From positions 1 to 57,552 of IMG/VR virus record IMGVR_UViG_3300023174_000194: 57,552 nucleotides of DNA; one strand, 5' to 3'. This document shows, in pieces, positions 649 to 57,229 of this stretch. The notes beneath the pieces were generated by a model, which saw nothing but the letters and a program-made list of their open reading frames with translations, had not been told where the DNA came from and made no database searches. A program made the translations under genes and the position numbers. This DNA comes from a virus. The first letter of the stretch is position 1. Every line of letters starts with the position of its first letter.

Positions 649-1686
649 TTACTTCTTTAAAGTAACCTTAGCCTTTGGATTCTTTGCGTTCCACTTCTTT
701 GCAAGAGCATTGTACTCTGCGATGTAAGTAGCCTTTGCAAGATCTGCTGCTGCCTTTTCTGATACGGCTTTAGATGTCGCTGTATCTAGTTGTGCCTTAA
801 GTGCTGTAGCATTTGAATCTGCTGCAACCTTATCTAGTGCACGACCTGCTTTTTCTGCAGCAAGTGCTGCATTAGCAACTGCAAGTTCTGCGTTCTTTGC
901 TGCAAGTTCCCCTGCAAGATCACGAACTACTACTGTTGCAACTACAGAACCAACTGGTGCTGAAAGACCAGTCACTGCTGTTGCTACTGTTGCGTATGCT
1001 GTAACTACAACTGAACCTGAAGCAGGAAGTGTTACTGTCTGCTCCTTAGTTCCAAGTGTTGCTACTGCTGTATCTGTTGTAAGTGCTGTTGCAGTTGCTG
1101 CACCATTATTGCTTACCAAAGTGTTAATTGTTGCGCCACCCTTTAGATTTCCAAATACATCGTATCCTGACACCTTAAGTGTTGCAATTGTTGCTGCTGC
1201 GCCAGATGCTGGGGCAGTCAGAGTGATTGAGTTCAAAGCACCTGCGGTACCCTGTACATAATATGTTGTTGAATTTCCACCAACTGTTACAACAACTGTT
1301 CCAACTGCAGTAGTCTTTGTGTAAACGTAGAAGTCTGCTGTTGTTCCTGTTCCTGTATTAATTGTTAGTGATGATGATCCAGATGACGCTGTCACTGGTG
1401 CGGTTGATGTTGCAAGAGCAGGAACAATTGTTGCATTTACTGCAACTGCTGAAACTGCTGTGCCTGTATCTACAGATGAAACAGCAATCTTCAATGCATC
1501 TGCTGCATCGATACTGTTATCTGCTGGAACTGGAAGTGCTACAGGAGTTGTTGCTACTGTTCCACCTGTTGCTGCAGAACCCGCAACCGTTAGGGTTGTC
1601 GTGGCAGCGCTTGCAGATGTTGCTACAAGCATTGTGCTAGTCAGGGCTGCAGCGATGATTAGCGATACTTTCTTGAATGAATTCAT
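649..1686 (-). CDS. Secreted Ig-like protein with C-terminal coiled coil
   Basis: 345 residues. A classic signal peptide (MNSFKKVSLIIAAALTSTML, then VATSASA cleavage) is followed by about 230 residues of Thr/Ala/Val-rich beta sequence of bacterial Ig-like type. The C-terminus is an alanine-rich coiled coil (about 255-325) and a basic tail (WNAKNPKAKVTLKK). The start follows AAGAGATA, a plausible ribosome site. It sits 16 bases after the terminase large subunit and ends in a strong terminator. It looks like an actinobacterial cell-surface protein acquired from a host, or a phage protein exported during infection, for example to mask receptors. Those roles are inference; the secretion signal is visible. 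Confidence 0.75.
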   Translation of the reverse strand: MNSFKKVSLIIAAALTSTMLVATSASAATTTLTVAGSAATGGTVATTPVALPVPADNSIDAADALKIAVSSVDTGTAVSAVAVNATIVPALATSTAPVTASSGSSSLTINTGTGTTADFYVYTKTTAVGTVVVTVGGNSTTYYVQGTAGALNSITLTAPASGAAATIATLKVSGYDVFGNLKGGATINTLVSNNGAATATALTTDTAVATLGTKEQTVTLPASGSVVVTAYATVATAVTGLSAPVGSVVATVVVRDLAGELAAKNAELAVANAALAAEKAGRALDKVAADSNATALKAQLDTATSKAVSEKAAADLAKATYIAEYNALAKKWNAKNPKAKVTLKK

Positions 1687-46557: not shown

Positions 46558-48591
46558 CTACTTGTTTATTTTAATTTCACAGTAGTCTGTAGTGCAATAT
46601 GATTCACCTTGAGCCTCAAGATTATCTACACCGTCGTAAATTGCAGAAAAGTCAATATGTTTTAATTTGCCAATATAGGACTCGTATTGCTCTTCAGTAA
46701 TACCTGTGTATGGCTGTTGTGGATAAACTGTGTTTCCCATTGGTAAGAATGAGACAGCCTTTAATTGTCCCTCGTACATATTAAGTGCTGGAACAATATG
46801 CTTTGACTCTGTTTCTTTGTCAAATGAAAGTGTCACAGAAACTCCATTGTCAGACCAATACTTTTGAGCAGTTGCTGCAAGAGCAATCTTTTCAAATAAT
46901 GTTACATCTTTTTCAGATCGTGGATGACCTGATTTAATTGGGAAGTAAACTACTGATGTGTTTGCTGATACTACGTCATCCTCAATTGTGTACCCTGCTG
47001 CTTTGAATAAATGAATCATTGGATCTGTGTTTCCAAAACGAACGGCACGAAGGAAGAACTCTCCTCCAGGTCCCCAGTGAACTCCAGGAGTTGCACCAGA
47101 AAGAATTGAAACTGATCCTGATGGCTTAACTGTTGTTACACGAATTGATTCACGAACACATAGCCACTCAGAGTACTGATGATCATAGTGACGAATCTTA
47201 TTGTATCCTTCATCCATCCACTCACGAACAATTGGCAAACCTTTTTGATCTGCAAATGATGCAATACCAGTAAGTGATGTACCAATACGACGGTTGCGTT
47301 GCATGATACCGTTTGTTTGTGGCCAGTGTGTTGGAACAAGTGTTACAGTTTTTCCATATAGGTATGCAAACTTCAGGGTACGCAGGAAGTCCTCCTTAGA
47401 TTCATGACGATTCAAGTGCACTTCTACAAGTGTACATAATTCATATGATTCTAATGGCTGCTCCGCACATGGATTAAAGCCCATCACACGATAGTCTTTT
47501 CCATCTGGCGCATCCTTTAGTCTGCCATAATTACGAGCAACATCAAGCCATATAAAACCTGGCTCTCCGTTCTCTGTAACTAAATCTACATAGTCTTCGT
47601 ACTTTGTTCCTACTTCTGCTGAAATAGAATTATTAGACATCCATGCCCACCCTGGATTTTCTGGATCAAATGAGTTGCGCTCTGGGAACATTTCTGAATT
47701 CTTTAGGTTCATAAATGTCTCATCCCCCGCATTACCCAAAGCAAGAGTTGCAGACCTGCGAACATTGCCTGATACCACACAGGTACCAATGAGGTTTACA
47801 AGGTCTACGATAGCACGAGAGTCTAGTGTTTCACCTGCTCTGGAGCCGATTACACGGTCTATATGGTCGTGCAACTTAATAAGAGGTGCAGGCCCTGATG
47901 CAACGCCTCCAAAGCCCTTTATGGGCGCCCCAAGGGGTCTGATCAAATCATAGTTAAATTTCTGAATACTTTGGTTTGCTCTGAGGTAAGAGTTGATTAG
48001 AATTCTAACTGACTCTACCCATCCCTCACGAGTGTCTGGGATTTCGAACACCTGTTCGGGTTCTGTCGGAGCATAGATTGAGAAATGCTTATCCTGTCCT
48101 ACTGTATCAAACCCTACACCAATACCAAGCATCAATGCATCCATAACCCAAGCAAACAATGCTCCTGGATCATTCTTGTCAAGGTCTTTGGTAGATACCA
48201 TTGCACAGTTTTGTAGTGCTGCTGAGTTTTTCTTCTCCATAGTCATAGGAGTTCCAAATGCCCACATACCTCGTCCTGGTGGTGTCCACTTCAATTCAAA
48301 CATTCTTTGAAATGCTTCTTGTGCAGACTTCTGAGCCTTGTAGTCATTCCAAGGTAAACGATTTTCTTTAGCATGATTTTTTTGAACTGAATACATACCC
48401 TCGATTACACGACGACAAACCTCATGCCATCTTTCTTTAGTTCCATCTTCTTTCATGCGAGAATATGTACGAATAAAAGTAATTTCTCCAAGTGAATTTT
48501 CTGCTGCATCCTTAAACCCAAATGGGCTTTCTTGGTTCTTGTATTTTTCTACGAAATCCTCTGGAAGTTTAAAACTAAAAAAATCTGACAT
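46558..48591 (-). CDS. nrdJ: Class II ribonucleoside-triphosphate reductase (adenosylcobalamin-dependent, monomeric type)
   Basis: 677 residues. Reduces ribonucleotides to deoxyribonucleotides using coenzyme B12. The signature residues are present at the spacing of the Lactobacillus enzyme: C129 (QNCAMVS), C375 and E377 (NPCAEQPLE), C386 (YELCTLVEV), and a C-terminal redox pair (YCTTDYCEIK). It is a single-chain enzyme with no separate small subunit, consistent with class II. It supplies precursors for the DnaE-based replication. Located among virion genes but with its own promoter, so it can be expressed separately. B12 must come from the host cell. Confidence 0.93.
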   Translation of the reverse strand: MSDFFSFKLPEDFVEKYKNQESPFGFKDAAENSLGEITFIRTYSRMKEDGTKERWHEVCRRVIEGMYSVQKNHAKENRLPWNDYKAQKSAQEAFQRMFELKWTPPGRGMWAFGTPMTMEKKNSAALQNCAMVSTKDLDKNDPGALFAWVMDALMLGIGVGFDTVGQDKHFSIYAPTEPEQVFEIPDTREGWVESVRILINSYLRANQSIQKFNYDLIRPLGAPIKGFGGVASGPAPLIKLHDHIDRVIGSRAGETLDSRAIVDLVNLIGTCVVSGNVRRSATLALGNAGDETFMNLKNSEMFPERNSFDPENPGWAWMSNNSISAEVGTKYEDYVDLVTENGEPGFIWLDVARNYGRLKDAPDGKDYRVMGFNPCAEQPLESYELCTLVEVHLNRHESKEDFLRTLKFAYLYGKTVTLVPTHWPQTNGIMQRNRRIGTSLTGIASFADQKGLPIVREWMDEGYNKIRHYDHQYSEWLCVRESIRVTTVKPSGSVSILSGATPGVHWGPGGEFFLRAVRFGNTDPMIHLFKAAGYTIEDDVVSANTSVVYFPIKSGHPRSEKDVTLFEKIALAATAQKYWSDNGVSVTLSFDKETESKHIVPALNMYEGQLKAVSFLPMGNTVYPQQPYTGITEEQYESYIGKLKHIDFSAIYDGVDNLEAQGESYCTTDYCEIKINK

Positions 48592-48704: not shown

Positions 48705-49448
48705 TTACTTAAAGACTTTTCTGTGCCAGTGTTTTACTCTATATCCATTTTGAAACATTGATCTTACAACTCTGCGCTGTAGATTTGTTTTTTCTGGATC
48801 CCATTCCTTGTCTAATTCCATGGACCAATCTTCACGCTTAAATGGAAACACCTGTGCTAATGGAGTTCCTTGCTTTATAACTCCCTTGAAATTTTTCTTA
48901 ACAAAGAATGATAGATGTCCATCTGAAAAGAATTCATCGGTATCAATAATTGCTTCTACTGCTTGTAATGGTGATGGAGGTTGGTGCATAGGTTGCATAA
49001 ATAGTGTGCTATATCCTGGTGGAGTCTTTACCATCCATGTAGGGTGAATTCTAAAAACTTGATTAACATAAATCCCTGCATCCATTGGGAACCTTGATAT
49101 TTGCTCTGAAGAATGATGTGCAATTAATTCTTGTTGGAATCTTTGCATTTCCCCTGGCAATTGTACCTCAAATTTACCATCCGTTGTATCTACATAAATG
49201 TCTACTGGCACTTTTAATATATATCCTACAGACATGGCATCAAAAAATGCTTGACACTTTTTTACCGTTAACTTAAATGATCCATTTTGAGGTGTGTCTT
49301 CGTTTGGTCCAGAAATACTTGGCTGATCTTTATACCATTGTGGAACATTTTTTGTACCTGGTTCTGGCAATGGAAAAACATCAACTAGATGTGGATAGGC
49401 TTGAAGAAAAGTGATTTTGTTGGTATTATTAGTATTATGTTTTTTCAT
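48705..49448 (-). CDS. Conserved-looking 247-residue protein, function unknown
   Basis: 247 residues. PEPGTKNVPQWYKDQPSI near the N-terminus, then VKKCQAFFDAMSVGYIL and KVPVDIYVD, and a central FRIHPTWMVKTPPGYSTLF. The last part holds MQPMHQPPSP, DTDEFFSDGH and KQGTPLAQVFPF, giving several His and Asp in a beta context; a cupin-like or double-stranded beta-helix fold is possible. The C-terminus is basic (RRVVRSMFQNGYRVKHWHRK). The ATG is six bases after a good -10, so it is leaderless. The gene stands alone between the fibre gene and the reductase. I cannot name it. Confidence 0.65.
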   Translation of the reverse strand: MKKHNTNNTNKITFLQAYPHLVDVFPLPEPGTKNVPQWYKDQPSISGPNEDTPQNGSFKLTVKKCQAFFDAMSVGYILKVPVDIYVDTTDGKFEVQLPGEMQRFQQELIAHHSSEQISRFPMDAGIYVNQVFRIHPTWMVKTPPGYSTLFMQPMHQPPSPLQAVEAIIDTDEFFSDGHLSFFVKKNFKGVIKQGTPLAQVFPFKREDWSMELDKEWDPEKTNLQRRVVRSMFQNGYRVKHWHRKVFK

Positions 49449-49486: not shown

Positions 49487-50896
49487 TTAGACCTTGGAGT
49501 TGTGGACAACCATGTTACCAGCGATGATTGTATCTACAGGGAATGCATTAAACTTAAATACATTTCTTGTTTCTGTGATATATTCTACGCTTGTTACAGG
49601 TGTTTCTGTCATGCCATTGTCTGTTGCTTCAAAGATAAAGTCTGTTGTCAATACCTTTTCTGCTTCAAGGAAGATGTGAGTGTTGTCTCTCTTAATGAGA
49701 ACCTTTTCTCCCTCAGTAAATCTCTTACCCTTGTCACCGTTAAAGAATAGTGTCTTCTCTTTAACTGATGGTTCGATGGCAATAATTTCTGAAGTAACTC
49801 TTTCAATTCCGTCTAGAATTTCTGGATATACTGTTGATGCTGATGGATCAACTGATTCGTCTAGTAGACCATTCCAGTTAATAGACCAGATCTTATCTCC
49901 GACAACAATATCTTTTGCTGCCTTAGATTCTACAGAATCTGTAACTCCAATAACTTGAATCTGTGTATCTTCATCAATACAGTATCTAAGAGGTACGAAT
50001 GAGTAAGATGGTGTAAACGCATATGGTGTAAATGAATATGGTGAAAATGCGTACGGAGTAAATGAATAAGGTGCAAATGAATATGGTACGAATGAGTACA
50101 CTGGTGTAAATGAATACGGTGCAAATGAGTATGGCACGAATGAATAAACTGGTGTGAATGAATACACTGGAGTAAACGCATATGGTGTAAACGCATAAGG
50201 TGTAAATGAGTAAACTGGTGTGAATGCATACGGAGTAAACGCATAAGGCGTAAATGAGTATGGTGTAAATGAGAATGTTGTAACTGATCCAGATGATGCT
50301 GAAACCACAGAGTTGCCGTTAGCATTAGTTGCATAGACTGTGTATGTTTGAGATGTTCCGCCTTCTTGGTTTACAGAAACAGATAATCCAGCAGTTGATC
50401 CACCCTTAGCATCTGAAGACGCCCAAGTATAAGAGGTAATTGCAGAACCACCATTATCTGGTGCTGTCCAAGAAACGCTGTCAGTGGTTGTACCTGCTAC
50501 GTTAGCACCAGCAGATGGAGTAGGTGATGATACAGATGGAGCACTAGGTGTTGCTGGAACTGTTGTAACAGTTACTGCAGCAGATGCTGAAGATGCTACA
50601 GAATTTCCTGCAGCATTTGATGCTACTACTGTGAATGTTGGGGTTGCATTTGATGCAATTCCAGTTACAATAATTGGAGAGGCTGAGCCTGTTCCTGTTT
50701 GTCCTGTACTTGCAGTTACTGTATAGGATGTAGCAGCAGGTGAAAGTGCTGGTAAGGAAAACGCTACAGATACAGCACCATTATTAAATGCTCTTCCTGT
50801 TCCTACGTTTGTTCCTGTAACACCTGTTGGTGCCATTGGCTCCAAGAAGTCATTTGACGCTTGTGCCTTTCTTCCGATCTTTTTACCTGCTGCCAT
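49487..50896 (-). CDS. Fibronectin-like fibre protein with F-x-P repeats and C-terminal Hint (intein-like) domain
   Basis: 469 residues. Two fibronectin type III-like domains (about 22-207), then a repeat region (208-304) of about 18 F-x-P units (FTPY, FTPVY, FAPY, FVPY), then a Hint domain from C306 to N466. The Hint start is CIDEDTQIQV (block A-like), followed by IVVGDKIWSI, and the end is VFKFNAFPVDTIIAGNMVVHN followed by S467, then K and V. The T-x-x-H motif of inteins seems replaced by T-x-x-E (TEGE, 394-397). Only SKV would be the C-extein. This could be an active or dead intein, or a Hint domain used for C-terminal processing or crosslinking. SD AGGAG. Confidence 0.8.
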   Translation of the reverse strand: MAAGKKIGRKAQASNDFLEPMAPTGVTGTNVGTGRAFNNGAVSVAFSLPALSPAATSYTVTASTGQTGTGSASPIIVTGIASNATPTFTVVASNAAGNSVASSASAAVTVTTVPATPSAPSVSSPTPSAGANVAGTTTDSVSWTAPDNGGSAITSYTWASSDAKGGSTAGLSVSVNQEGGTSQTYTVYATNANGNSVVSASSGSVTTFSFTPYSFTPYAFTPYAFTPVYSFTPYAFTPYAFTPVYSFTPVYSFVPYSFAPYSFTPVYSFVPYSFAPYSFTPYAFSPYSFTPYAFTPSYSFVPLRYCIDEDTQIQVIGVTDSVESKAAKDIVVGDKIWSINWNGLLDESVDPSASTVYPEILDGIERVTSEIIAIEPSVKEKTLFFNGDKGKRFTEGEKVLIKRDNTHIFLEAEKVLTTDFIFEATDNGMTETPVTSVEYITETRNVFKFNAFPVDTIIAGNMVVHNSKV

Positions 50897-50929
50897 GATT
50901 AATCTCCTATTTTCTTATTGAATTTTGTA

Positions 50930-53413
50930 TTACGCTGTCAAGTCGCCAAAGACAACCCATGTATTTGCTGCTCTCTTAAAGAGAGTTGCAGATGACCACT
51001 GTGTACGAAGTTTTAAACCTGGTGTTGAGTTAACTGTAACTGTTCCATCTACTGGGGCAATAGTTACTTGTCCTGCTCCAGTTTGAAGAATATCAATAGA
51101 TGTTCCTATTGGATACGCTACTGCTGTATTTGTTGGGATTGTAATTGTTGTACCAGATGCAGAAGAAACTTCAATTAATGAATCTCTTTCTGTAAGTGCT
51201 GAAAGTGTATAGGATGCTGTCTTTTGAACAATTGGTGTCCGTGATGCTACACCTTCTTTTGTCTGTGTACCGTCTGTAAATGCTACTCCTGCTGCTGCAA
51301 CTGTTACTGTTCCAGTAAATGTAGGTGAAGCAAGTGGAGCCTTTAGAGCAAGTGAGTTTGTTACTGTTGTTGAGAATGATGCGTCATTTCCAAGCGCAGT
51401 TGCTAACTCATTAAGAGTATCAAGTGCTGCTGGTGCTGACGCTACAAGTGCTGCAACCTCTCCACGAACATAGGCTGTTGTTGCAACCTGTGTAGTGTTA
51501 GTTGCTACTGCTGCTGTAGGTGCTGTTGGAACACCAGTAAGTGCTGGTGAGGCAAGCGGTGCGTATGTTGACGCTGCTGTTGCTGAAGCAAGTTTTAGAT
51601 CAAGTGCTGTTTGTGTAGCAGTTGAAACTGGCTTTGCACTATCTGCTGTATTATCAACATTTGCAAGTCCTACCATAGACTTTGTAATACCTGAGACAGT
51701 TCCTGTAAATGTAGGGCCTGCAAGTGGTGCGTATGTTGATGCTGCAGTTGCAGAAGCAAGTTTAAGATCAAGTGCTGTTTGTGTAGCAGTTGAAATTGGC
51801 TTTGCTGTGTCCGCAGTATTATCTACAGAATCCAAGCCAACCATTGACTTAGTAATTCCTGAAACTGTTCCTGTGAAGGTTGGTGATGCTAGTGGTGCTT
51901 TTGCAGCGAGAGAATTTGTAATTGTTGTTGAGAATGAAGCATCGTTACCAAGTGCTGATGCCAACTCATTAAGAGTGTCAAGCGCTGCTGGTGCTGATGC
52001 AACTAATGCTGATGCTGCATTTGATGCTGCTCGATCTGCGTATGCTGTAGTAGCAATTTTAGTGCTATTATCTGCAGCAGATGCTGTTGGAGCAGTTGGT
52101 GTACCAGTTAGTGCTGGTGAAGCAAGAGGTGCCTTGGCATCAAGTGCTGTTTGCTGTGCTGTAGAAACTGGCTTTGCTGAATCTGCAGTGTTATCAACTG
52201 ATCCTAAACCAACCATGCTCTTTGTAATACCTGATACAGTTCCTGTAAATGTTGGTGAAGCAATTGGTGCTTTAGTTCCAACTAAAGTAGCAAGAGTTGC
52301 TGCTGTTCCTTCATCTGCTGTTAAAGCAATTGCAATTTCGTTAAGAGTATCTAGTGTTGCAGGTGCTGATGCTACTACTGCTGCAACTGCTGTTGATGCT
52401 GCATTATCAGCATATGTCTTAGTTGCAAGAAGCGCTGTATCTGCAATACCATGAACATTTGTTGTTGCTGAATTGTGTGTTGAAAGTGCTGATCCTGCTG
52501 CAGTCGCTGCTGCAGAAGTTGCTGCAGACTGGGCATCTGAAGCCTTTCCATCAGCATAAACCTTAGTTGCTAGAAGTGCTGTGTCAGCAATTCCATGAAC
52601 ATTTGTTGTGTCTGCTTCGTGTGCTGCTACTGCTGTTGAAATTGCTGTTGTAGTTGCTGCAGTTGTAGCAAGAAGTGATGTGTCTGCAATACCATGAACA
52701 GCAGTAGTGTCATTGTTATGTGTTGTAATAGAAGCATCTGAGTAAGACTCTGAGGCTGTTGCTGCTGCTGCTATTGCTTGTGATTTACCAGTTGCAACCT
52801 TGTTTGTTGCATCTGTTGCTGCTGCTGCGATTGCTTCTGACTTGGCAGTTGCTACTGTTGTTGCAGTTGCAAGAACTGCTGTATCTGCAATACCATGAAC
52901 ATTTGTTGTATCTGAATTGTGTACTCCAATTTTTGTATCTGCTGTACCTGCTGCAGATGCAATTGCTGCGGATTGAGCAGTTGATGCTTCAAGAGTTGCT
53001 GCTGCTGCAACATCTGAAACTTCTGACTTAAGTGCTAGAAGTGCTGTATTAGCAATTCCATGAATATTTGTTGTGTCTATAGCATGTGTATTAATTGCTG
53101 CTGTAGCAAAAGCAGTTGATTCGTCTACCGATGTGTTGATTGATGCTTCAATTGCAGTACCAAAGTTGGCGTCATCGCCGATGGCTGCTGCTAGTTCATT
53201 AAGAGTGTTGAGTAGATCTGGGGCACCGTCTACAAGAGCAGCAATTTCGGCTGCAGAAGCATAATATGTCAGAGCAGACCAAGTGTTTACTCCATCACCA
53301 ATCTTAAACTTATTTGTTCCGCTTTCGAATCCAATTTCTCCTGCTGCTAGAATTGGATTTGCAGTAGTCCACTGCGTTGCAGTTCCTCTGCGCTGTTGCA
53401 TTCTTGTTGCCAT
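50930..53413 (-). CDS. Long tail fibre protein with repeated modules
   Basis: 827 residues. The N-terminus (RRGTATQWTTANPILAAGEIG, then FKIGDGVNTWSAL) is the attachment module common to phage fibres. The rest is repetitive: copies of TTNVHGIADTALLAT, of LDTLNELAAALGDDASF, and of the TFTGTVSGITKSMVGL-type strand with VDNTADSAKPVSTA. Such modules form alternating coiled coils and beta rods in trimeric fibres. The C-terminus (ITIPTNTAVAYPIGTSIDI, then WVVFGDLTA) may be the tip. Promoter at 53456-53464 and SD AAGGAG. Confidence 0.85.
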   Translation of the reverse strand: MATRMQQRRGTATQWTTANPILAAGEIGFESGTNKFKIGDGVNTWSALTYYASAAEIAALVDGAPDLLNTLNELAAAIGDDANFGTAIEASINTSVDESTAFATAAINTHAIDTTNIHGIANTALLALKSEVSDVAAAATLEASTAQSAAIASAAGTADTKIGVHNSDTTNVHGIADTAVLATATTVATAKSEAIAAAATDATNKVATGKSQAIAAAATASESYSDASITTHNNDTTAVHGIADTSLLATTAATTTAISTAVAAHEADTTNVHGIADTALLATKVYADGKASDAQSAATSAAATAAGSALSTHNSATTNVHGIADTALLATKTYADNAASTAVAAVVASAPATLDTLNEIAIALTADEGTAATLATLVGTKAPIASPTFTGTVSGITKSMVGLGSVDNTADSAKPVSTAQQTALDAKAPLASPALTGTPTAPTASAADNSTKIATTAYADRAASNAASALVASAPAALDTLNELASALGNDASFSTTITNSLAAKAPLASPTFTGTVSGITKSMVGLDSVDNTADTAKPISTATQTALDLKLASATAASTYAPLAGPTFTGTVSGITKSMVGLANVDNTADSAKPVSTATQTALDLKLASATAASTYAPLASPALTGVPTAPTAAVATNTTQVATTAYVRGEVAALVASAPAALDTLNELATALGNDASFSTTVTNSLALKAPLASPTFTGTVTVAAAGVAFTDGTQTKEGVASRTPIVQKTASYTLSALTERDSLIEVSSASGTTITIPTNTAVAYPIGTSIDILQTGAGQVTIAPVDGTVTVNSTPGLKLRTQWSSATLFKRAANTWVVFGDLTA

Positions 53414-53952: not shown

Positions 53953-56560
53953 TTACTTAATAAGTGTTCCAGATACTTTAACTGTTGAGTTGTTTGTTGG
54001 TGTAACTCGAACTCTAACATTTGCACCTGAAATATCTGCTGTGATTGTTCCTCTTGATCCATTAGTTCCAACAATTGCATATTCTGTAATTGCAATGTTG
54101 TCTGTTGAGTCTAGAGTTACTAGAATTTCTGACATTTCATTATCTGTTCCGTTGTCAATCTTAACAAGGAGTTTGGCTGAACGATAGTCTGCCTTTGCCC
54201 ACTGATAAGCAGTTCCAACAACGGTTGCTGTTCCTGAAGAAGATGCTGCAATTTGCTTGGCCTCAGAATTTACATTTATTTCTGTAAATGCTGTTGTTCC
54301 ATCAAGTACATCATCAAGTGCTGCTTGGGCTGTAGCCTCTGCTGCAGCCTTTGCTGCATTTGCCTTAGATGTTGCATCTGCTGAAGCAGTTGCTTCTGCA
54401 CCTGACTTAGCATTGTTAGCCTTAGTTGTGGCATCTGCTGCTGCGGTTGATATTGCATTTGTAACTGCTGTTGCTCTTAGTCCTGCCTCTGATGCTACCT
54501 TAGAAGTTGCATCTGCTGAAGCGGTTGCCTCTGCTGCAGCCTGTGCTGCGTTAGCCTTTGTAGTAGCGTCTGATGCTGCTGCTGTAGTTGCTGCAGTCTG
54601 TGCAGCATCTGCTGCTGCCTTTGCGTATGCAGTTGTTGCGACCTGAGTTGTATTTGTACCTGCTGCAGCAGTTGGTGCTGTAGGTGTACCAGTTAATGCT
54701 GGTGAAGCAAGTGGGGCTTTTGTTCCCAATGCAGTTGTAATAGTTGTTGTGTAATTAGCATCATCATTGATTGCTGCTGCCAATTCATTTAATGTATCAA
54801 GAAGTGCTGGTGCACCATCTACTAATGAATCTACTGCAGTTGAAATTGCTGTATTACGGTTTGTAACCTCTGTTGAGATTGCAGATGAAAGTGCTGATGC
54901 TGCAGTTGATTCTGCTGCAGTACGTGCAGCGTTAGCCTTTGAAGTAGCGTCTGCTGATGCAGTTGCAATTGCTGCAGTTACAGCAGTTGCTCTTGCAGTT
55001 GCTTCTGCTGCAACCTTGTCGGTTGCATCTGTTGCTGCAGTTGCTTCCGCACCTGACTTAGCATTATTTGCTTTTGTAGTAGCGTCTGCTGATGCTGTTG
55101 CTTCTGCTGCTGCTCGTGCAGCATTTGCTTTGCTTGTAGCATCTGCTGATGCTGTAGCCTCTGCTGCAGCCTTTGCAGCGTTTGCCTTTGAAGTAGCGTC
55201 TGCTGAAGCAGTTGCTTCTGCACCTGACTTAGCATTGTTAGCCTTAGTTGTGGCGTCTGTCGCTGCTGCTGCTACTGCATCTGAATATGCTGTGTTTGCT
55301 GATCCTGCTGCGTCATAGTTGACTGCAAGGCTATCTGCATATCCTCTTGCTGAAGTGTTTGCTGCTGCTGCTGCACCTGCTACATCGTATGCTGCTGAAG
55401 TTGCAGATAGTGCACGAGAGTTTGTGAAGTAAAGGTTGTTGCTGCCCTCTTCAATATCGTCTGTGTTAAGAAGATCAATTTGATCTCCAATTGTTCCACC
55501 TACAGCGTCAATTGCTCGCTGGTTTGTGAAGTAAAGGTTTGTACCTTCTGCTACATCAGATGTAGTTTGGTTGTCAACATAAGCCTGAGTTGCAAGAACA
55601 TCTGCACCCCACTTAACTGAAGAACCTGCTGCTGGAGTAAGAACGATATGAGAATCAGAATTGATTGTCATTGCTCCTGCGCCTGCGAAGTTTAATGTAT
55701 CTCCAATAGTCTTATTTGTTAATGTTTGTGTGTCTGTTGTTCCAACTACCGCACCAGTTACACCGTGTGCTGATGTGTCTGCTTCGTGAGTTGTAAGATT
55801 TCCTGCTACTGCATTAGCCTTAGATGTTGCGTCTGCTGATGCTGTAGCCTCTGCTGCAGCCTGTGCAGCGTTAGCCTTTGAGGTAGCGTCTGATGCAGCG
55901 TTTGATTCTGCTGTATCTACATAACCCTTAGTTGCTGCATGCAATGATGATGTTGGTGCACCTGAAAGTGTCAAAGCACCTGTCATTGTGTCGCCAGCCT
56001 TGGCAACCTTTTGTCCTACTGATGTAGCAAGATCTGTTGCATAGTTTGGATTATCTGAAATTGCTGCTGCTAATTCATTAAGTGTATCAAGAAGTGCTGG
56101 TGCTGAATCAACAAGTGCTGCAACTTCTGCATCTGTGTAAGCAATTGCTGCTGCTTCTGCTGCATCTGCTTTTGCAGTAGCGTCTGCAGATGCTGTGGCT
56201 TCTGCTGCTGCTCGTGCAGCATTTGCTTTGCTTGTTGCGTCTGCTGAGGCAGTTGCTTCTGCTGCAGTACGTGCAGCGTTAGCCTTTGAGGTAGCGTCTG
56301 CTGATGCTGTGGCTTCTGCTCCGCTCTTTGCATTGTTTGCCTTTGTAGTAGCATCTGTTGCTGCAGTTGAAATTGCAGCGTTAGCCTTGGATGTTGCATC
56401 TGATGCAGCGGTTGCTTCTGCTGCTGCTCGTGCAGCATTTGCTTTGCTTGTTGCATCTGCTGAGGCTGTAGCCTCTGCACCACTCTTGGCAGCATTTGCC
56501 TTTGTGGTTGCATCTGTTGCTGCTGCAGCCTGTGCTGCTGCTGCTGCGCCTGACGCATCA
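53953..56560 (-). repeat. Imperfect tandem repeats of about 57 bases inside the fibre gene
   Basis: The DNA encoding the ADATSKANAA-type segment recurs many times in three main clusters (about 54330-54560, 54900-55260, 56120-56540), each unit about 57 bases with scattered substitutions. The divergence of third positions shows that these are old copies kept similar by selection or recombination. Confidence 0.7.
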
Positions 56561-56769
56561 AATACGCCTGACTTAATATTTAGTTCACCAGCAACAACTT
56601 CCATCTGTGTTGATTCAACAGATGTTACGAGTGTTTGTCCACCAATTAAATCAATGATGTATTGGTCTGATGCTGTTTCTGAAAGAACTTGATTACCATT
56701 AACGGTTGCTGTTGTTCCTTCGACTACTAGGCCATTTTTGACCTTAAAGTTTTTATTTACTGTTGCCAT
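53953..56769 (-). CDS. Very alanine-rich long fibre protein
   Basis: 938 residues. After an N-terminal module (NKNFKVKNGLVVEG) the protein is built of many near-identical segments of about 19 residues (ADATSKANAARAAAEATAS), forming long coiled-coil stretches, interrupted by LLDTLNELAAAI-type and TGTPTAPTAA-type modules. Two similar NLYFTNxRA segments lie near the centre. The last 70 residues (MSEILVTLDSTDNIAITEY onward) resemble the C-terminus of the 148-residue protein upstream. A trimeric tail fibre shaft is the best reading. Repeats make the DNA prone to recombination and misassembly. Confidence 0.85.
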   Translation of the reverse strand: MATVNKNFKVKNGLVVEGTTATVNGNQVLSETASDQYIIDLIGGQTLVTSVESTQMEVVAGELNIKSGVFDASGAAAAAQAAAATDATTKANAAKSGAEATASADATSKANAARAAAEATAASDATSKANAAISTAATDATTKANNAKSGAEATASADATSKANAARTAAEATASADATSKANAARAAAEATASADATAKADAAEAAAIAYTDAEVAALVDSAPALLDTLNELAAAISDNPNYATDLATSVGQKVAKAGDTMTGALTLSGAPTSSLHAATKGYVDTAESNAASDATSKANAAQAAAEATASADATSKANAVAGNLTTHEADTSAHGVTGAVVGTTDTQTLTNKTIGDTLNFAGAGAMTINSDSHIVLTPAAGSSVKWGADVLATQAYVDNQTTSDVAEGTNLYFTNQRAIDAVGGTIGDQIDLLNTDDIEEGSNNLYFTNSRALSATSAAYDVAGAAAAANTSARGYADSLAVNYDAAGSANTAYSDAVAAAATDATTKANNAKSGAEATASADATSKANAAKAAAEATASADATSKANAARAAAEATASADATTKANNAKSGAEATAATDATDKVAAEATARATAVTAAIATASADATSKANAARTAAESTAASALSSAISTEVTNRNTAISTAVDSLVDGAPALLDTLNELAAAINDDANYTTTITTALGTKAPLASPALTGTPTAPTAAAGTNTTQVATTAYAKAAADAAQTAATTAAASDATTKANAAQAAAEATASADATSKVASEAGLRATAVTNAISTAAADATTKANNAKSGAEATASADATSKANAAKAAAEATAQAALDDVLDGTTAFTEINVNSEAKQIAASSSGTATVVGTAYQWAKADYRSAKLLVKIDNGTDNEMSEILVTLDSTDNIAITEYAIVGTNGSRGTITADISGANVRVRVTPTNNSTVKVSGTLIK

Positions 56770-56782
56770 TTTTTATATCTCC

Positions 56783-57229
56783 TTAAGCCTTTAATCCAAT
56801 TCGTGCGAAACGAACTGTTATAGGTGTTTGACCGCTTACTGGAGTGACTGATAAAGCCACGGTATTTCCAGTGCGTGAGACATTAATGGTGCCAATATTC
56901 CCATCATTGTCGATTGTTCCGTATTCGGTTACATTTACTCCTGTACCGTCAACAAGAACAGTTAGTTCTGTTGCATAAAATTTGTTATCCCCTTGTGAGA
57001 CCTTTGAGATTGACACAAGGTATTTGACCATTCGAAACACAGTTGCATCAAAGTTGTCAACAACCGTTGTGTTTTCAATTCCATTGATTGTAACTTCGTT
57101 ATTACCTGATGTACCCAAATCTGTTGCTTGGGATGAAAGGGTATCGATTAGATCTACGTAATCCTCCTGGGTAGGACGATCACCAGTTTGAAACTTTAAC
57201 TTAACATTCGGAATTGTGAGTTTGGCCAT
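56783..57229 (-). CDS. Small fibre-associated beta protein
   Basis: 148 residues. N-terminal IPNVKLKFQTGDRPTQEDYVDLIDTLS is a helical module seen at fibre starts. The C-terminal 75 residues (from KYLVSISKVSQGDN, with ATELTVLVDGTGVNVTEYG and NTVALSVTPVSGQ) match in order the end of the 938-residue fibre. The ATG is six bases after TATAAT without a ribosome site, so it is probably leaderless. It stands just upstream of the fibre and could be its partner or a free copy of its tip. Confidence 0.65.
   Translation of the reverse strand: MAKLTIPNVKLKFQTGDRPTQEDYVDLIDTLSSQATDLGTSGNNEVTINGIENTTVVDNFDATVFRMVKYLVSISKVSQGDNKFYATELTVLVDGTGVNVTEYGTIDNDGNIGTINVSRTGNTVALSVTPVSGQTPITVRFARIGLKA

Follow-up and report, generated by a model that had tools for sequence, protein, structure and literature searches.

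A Hint domain at the C-terminal end of a phage fibre protein, with a possible role in processing the fibre tip

The DNA considered here, referred to as the window, is the whole 57,552-nucleotide stretch of the IMG/VR virus record IMGVR_UViG_3300023174_000194, whose source virus infects freshwater bacteria. Towards the end of the window lies a fibre gene (Table 1), which an earlier note, made from the letters alone, had pointed out as an open reading frame; the frame is real and its strand is minus. The note's Cys306, T-E-G-E block B, HN end and SKV tail are all in place in the product, and its aromatic repeat region has 18 F-x-P motifs spread over residues 210-300, far above the mean of 2.4 and the maximum of 9 obtained in 2000 shuffles of the same protein. 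The N-terminus bears the signature MAAGKKIGRKAQASNDFLEP (pattern KKxGxKxQxSNDFLxP) and is conserved in at least 590 viral stretches, the fibronectin-like assignment of the domains that follow is based on BFVD relatives bearing the name Fibronectin type III, and residues 11-213 give a weak NCBIfam match to CbhB.

Table 1. Features of the fibre gene and its neighbours, with positions in the window
Feature	Position	Strand	Basis or remarks
Fibre gene, 469 aa (reads 50896 to 49487)	49487..50896	-	ORF and SD-like AGGAG; relatives across many contigs
Shine-Dalgarno-like AGGAG, 8-12 bases 5' of ATG	50904..50908	-
N-terminal signature and two fibronectin-III-like domains, residues 1-206	50279..50896	-
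Aromatic F-x-P repeat region, residues 207-305	49982..50278	-	18 F-x-P motifs
Hint domain, residues 306-466	49499..49981	-	AF2, Foldseek, Pfam PF14890 in relatives
Cys306, Hint position 1	49979..49981	-	Invariant (63/63); TGT and TGC both used across the family
Glu397 at block B His position (T-x-x-E; here T-E-G-E)	49706..49708	-	RadA intein alignment
Asp455 at block F His position	49532..49534	-	D in 49/49 HN members
His465-Asn466, C-terminal junction	49499..49504	-	HN in 49/63 relatives
C-terminal tail Ser467-Lys468-Val469, then stop	49490..49498	-	Lys kept, +1 not conserved; synonymous codons vary
Neighbouring tail fibre protein, Mtd N-terminal domain	50930..53413	-	Pfam PF18454 E 1.5e-10; PHROG tail fiber
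Further tail fibre and baseplate-connector-like genes, same cluster	53953..57229	-	PHROG tail fiber; baseplate wedge tail fiber connector

Because the neighbouring genes are those of fibres and baseplate connectors, the protein is very likely a tail fibre-type protein of the virion, its presence there being judged from this setting. The gene directly behind it (window 48705-49448, minus strand) matches PHROG 7084, with a weak DUF6065 match, and a 677-aa ribonucleotide-reductase-like gene, recognised by eye, lies between structural genes at window 46558-48591 (minus strand). At window 649-1686 (minus strand), a 345-aa protein with a signal-peptide-like start, rich in Ala, Thr and Val and without a PHROG match, has the appearance of a secreted or surface protein. 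The terminase of this 57.5-kb record is 54% identical to those of Streptomyces phages, and a second fibre type discussed below bears a PASTA-like domain; on both grounds, the host is probably an actinobacterium. Streptomyces phage Francob, with a terminase at this 54% identity, carries no such Hint.

The earlier note's reading of a Hint domain found no backing in searches of Pfam, PHROGs and NCBIfam with the fibre protein as a single query, none of which matched a Hint profile, nor is PF07591 present within the window, but it is borne out by the relatives. Pfam Intein_splicing (PF14890) is matched by 31 of 47 relatives (best E 4.9e-7), and a profile of the family alignment searched against the PDB finds the Pho RadA intein (7e-4), the MJ KlbA intein and a BIL domain. 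Additionally, an AlphaFold2 model built from 63 relatives (pLDDT 89.7, pTM 0.85), which supersedes one from 10 close sequences (pLDDT 70.7), has top Foldseek matches in the PDB that are all Hint, among them the NpuDnaB intein, BIL2 and hedgehog. Together, the relatives' profiles and the predicted fold show that the C-terminal domain is a true Hint domain; as single-sequence annotation misses it, the earlier note had caught something beyond such annotation. A chance motif is ruled out, since the 164-aa module is shared by scores of phage contigs at identities down to about 25%, its profile finds inteins and a BIL in the PDB, and its predicted fold is that of a Hint.

Scans of IMG/VR gave a family of 63 distinct members, with identities down to 23%, in all of which the Hint forms the C-terminal domain of a fibre-type protein and follows aromatic/proline repeats. 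The relatives' repeats differ from F-x-P in spelling (FFAPPG, VFGFSP, FPSFPT). Between one and five residues follow the Asn in these members, except in one with 15. A sister group of 34 members, 33 of them ending HNK-stop, is linked to the family by profile-profile comparison (probability 99.8, E 1e-29), and no bacterial homologues of the Hint were found in the GTDB genome contigs scanned; the family, with its sister group, is phage-only. One outlier Hint (L355:3001-3480) lacks Cys1, has S-x-x-H at block B and ends HD-S, with D for N. Some relatives are already named 'Hint domain containing protein' in public records, and the presence of these Hints is therefore already known; the PMC papers retrieved contain no description of such a fibre Hint and nothing on its function. 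The papers on phiCbK and CBB deal with other inteins.

The residues expected of Hint chemistry are conserved unevenly. Cys1 is found in all 63 members, including those retrieved by a search pattern of which it was not a part, and in 33 of 34 sister sequences; this count and those that follow are of related sequences, not of independent events. In the HMM alignment to the RadA intein, the block B His is matched by E397 and the block F His by D455. The replacement of the block B His seen in the earlier note extends to most of the family: the position is E in 33 members, Q in 23 and H in 7, with at least six changes on the tree. Some inteins without the block B His are still able to splice, by compensation (PMC7664689). 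The HN end, kept in 49 of 63 members, was lost once on the tree, in a clade with VFGFSP repeats (loci L076, L079-L087 and L161-L191) that keeps Cys1 and whose phages show YN, YG or HP instead on each of their two fibre types. Block F is Asp in 49/49 members with HN and Gly in 14/14 without it, a joint change that is one event on the tree. That Asp and HN are kept or lost together is as expected of an active C-terminal site, and an invariant Cys1 alongside a D/H/N set behaving as a unit fits live chemistry.

Behind the Asn, the +1 residue of the 49 HN members varies (S 11, L 10, R 7, K 6, A 4, others), with 11 kinds and at least 19 changes on the tree; 38 of the 49 lack Ser, Thr or Cys there, while the window protein and its clade have Ser. 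Such variation, with the three-residue C-extein, agrees with the earlier note's view that ordinary splicing is unlikely. An ordinary mini-intein, excising itself and joining SKV to the fibre, would account for the co-occurrence of Cys1, HN and Ser+1 in the window protein, but we regard it as very improbable: the +1 nucleophile is present in only 11 of 49 HN relatives, the C-extein is 1-5 residues nearly throughout, Hint-less relatives offer no uninterrupted version ending in SKV, and both an endonuclease and the block B His are missing.

The tail lysine is the least explained feature of the family. Lys occupies +2 in 48 of 49 HN members, the remaining one ending HNK, and is the last residue, at +1, in 33/33 of the sister group, such that a Lys lies at most two residues from the Asn in all 82 HN-bearing members of family and sister group together. 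Position 3 of the domain is acidic, being Asp in 63/63 members and Glu in 32 of 34 sister sequences; the Lys could pair with the acidic position 3 or could serve as an acceptor amine, and its conservation counts against the tail being simply discarded. A DNA-level element was considered as the cause of the highly conserved gene end and rejected: variation at synonymous sites speaks against it, as does the end of conservation at the stop codon. Within the SKV clade, 18 of the variable sites in the last 27 codons are synonymous and 2 non-synonymous, against 50 and 68 in the first 137 codons.

The scaffold on which the Hint sits also occurs with other ends. The 61 distinct complete fibres whose N-terminal parts are nearest show four kinds of end: a Cys-rich tip (28 fibres), the repeats or a short tail (26), a Hint (6) and the beginning of a peptidase S74 chaperone (1). 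The last (L265:324-1388 and downstream, on an FN3/FFPP scaffold) matches Pfam PF13884 at E 1.1e-7, and the second part of its S74 domain lies in another reading frame, through a frameshift that is real or a sequencing error. The Cys-rich tips of Hint-less fibres are 25-30 residues long and resemble a small knob, for example CSGCIRSYCWQACPGCCGSCGC (L235, L241, L255, L269 and others). Because fibres on the same scaffold carry other tips or none, the Hint is one of several end pieces, and the comparison of these sequences indicates a tip module open to exchange rather than a mobile intein. The mobile intein was rejected as a candidate, a C-extein being missing and an endonuclease-sized insert absent.

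With other small tips occupying the same slot on the same scaffold, a catalytically weak or dead Hint fold could act as a structural or receptor-binding fibre tip, an alternative to the Cys-rich knobs. The replacement of the block B His by E or Q almost everywhere and the existence of an entire clade without HN in both its fibre types agree with this account, which is possible, if somewhat unlikely, given that a purely structural domain need not keep Cys1 (63/63, plus 33/34 in the sister group) and the Asp/His/Asn residues as a set.

Further information comes from phages with two such fibres. At least five contigs hold two Hint copies, one on an FN3-type fibre and one on a PASTA-type fibre, and in a tree of the Hints the copies cluster according to phage clade rather than fibre type, a single clade for PASTA-type Hints being rejected by the AU test (p 2e-6). 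The Hint was copied or homogenised between the two fibres of one phage, consistent with a partner or a step that both fibres share. A shared partner would suit covalent attachment, the idea put forward in the earlier note, whereby the Cys306 thioester would hand the fibre end to an outside nucleophile, be it another fibre, a protein of the virion or a host-surface molecule. The exposed position at the fibre end and the invariance of Cys1 even where HN is lost also speak for such a transfer; nevertheless, there is no known acceptor, the Hint is not followed by a region for recognising a sterol or adduct, and the fibre domain lacks the block B His that hedgehog retains, and we consider attachment of this kind unlikely. 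Less likely again is a lysine-dependent chemistry in which the Cys1 thioester would be taken by an amine, either of the conserved Lys or of another fibre or the host surface; the tip would then be cross-linked, or capped by a peptide or isopeptide bond, and these phages would make a covalent bond through their fibres.

The reading that we favour, at a probability of roughly 0.45, is that of a non-mobile C-terminal tip Hint which, by analogy and from its conserved residues, may carry out self-processing of the fibre end in the manner of A-type BILs. In A-type BILs, a Cys1 thioester and Asn cyclisation operate without a +1 nucleophile, and a free amine can then take the thioester (PMC4031507). 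By such a route, Cys306 would take the carbonyl of Tyr305 as a thioester, Asn466 would cyclise and the Hint domain would be released from the fibre, leaving the F-x-P region as the mature fibre end, either as a free acid or capped via the short Lys-bearing tail peptide or another amine. The Hint would then be an end piece that removes or trims itself, occupying the slot otherwise held by S74, a Cys-rich knob or nothing, and the replaced block B residue would suggest a slow or triggered reaction. Against self-processing stands the block B His itself, missing in 56/63 members and in 33/33 of the sister sequences. The S74 analogy for self-removal draws on a single locus, with the domain partly in another frame. 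Compared with attachment, self-removal accounts for the observations equally well or better.

Altogether, the fibre Hint, found at the same place in many related phages, forms a real family which probably serves the trimming or chemical linking of the fibre tip. If self-processing takes place, it would be a new use of Hint chemistry, in fibre maturation or, at best, covalent adhesion, and a Hint working without the block B His and a +1 nucleophile would be of interest to protein engineers.

Hint domains that process themselves occur in selfish inteins, in the hedgehog proteins of animals and in proteins secreted by bacteria. With the A-type BIL of Clostridium thermocellum (2lwy), the fibre Hint shares the predicted fold (Foldseek E 7.6e-6, TM 0.78 by target), Cys1, the C-terminal HN and, in most of the family, the lack of a +1 nucleophile; it differs in having E or Q at block B and Asp at block F, in its place in phage fibres, in a C-extein of 1-5 aa with a conserved Lys and, for the window member, in Ser+1. 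Class 1 mini-inteins (NpuDnaB 4o1r, Pho RadA 4e2u) are alike in Hint fold, in the profile match (E 7e-4) and in the Cys1, HN and Ser+1 of the window protein, whereas the fibre Hint does not sit in a conserved site, has no real C-extein and does not conserve +1, and the T-x-x-H of block B, absent from the window protein, recurs as H in only 7/63 relatives.

Hedgehog attaches cholesterol via its Hint thioester chemistry, and its Hog domain, in which the block B His is retained, lacks an HN end and carries a sterol-recognition region behind the Hint. The Hog structure (1at0) resembles the fibre domain in predicted fold (TM 0.79 by target), C-terminal place and Cys1; in contrast, the window protein has T-x-x-E and ends three residues after Asn466, leaving no room for a sterol-recognition region.

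The tail fibre proteins of jumbo phage NCTB and of Erwinia phages (LT598654, MW366843) also end in a Hint plus 3-10 residues and have the block F Asp. Their Hints are, however, only about 22-28% identical, keep the block B His, follow Gly-rich or collagen-like stretches and have a tail without the HN-(x)-K rule. Phage NCTB also has a nearly free-standing Hint gene of 153 aa (L017:8480-8941), ending VHNKVD and located directly behind its Hint-tipped fibre gene. The peptidase S74 chaperone of fibres and tailspikes offers a further parallel as a C-terminal self-removing module, found once on the same scaffold (L265), although its fold and chemistry are unrelated to those of a Hint. Within this company, the family is marked by its own signature of Cys1, block B E/Q, block F Asp and an HN-(x)-Lys end, and by keeping the Hint as the terminal module of two distinct kinds of fibre protein.
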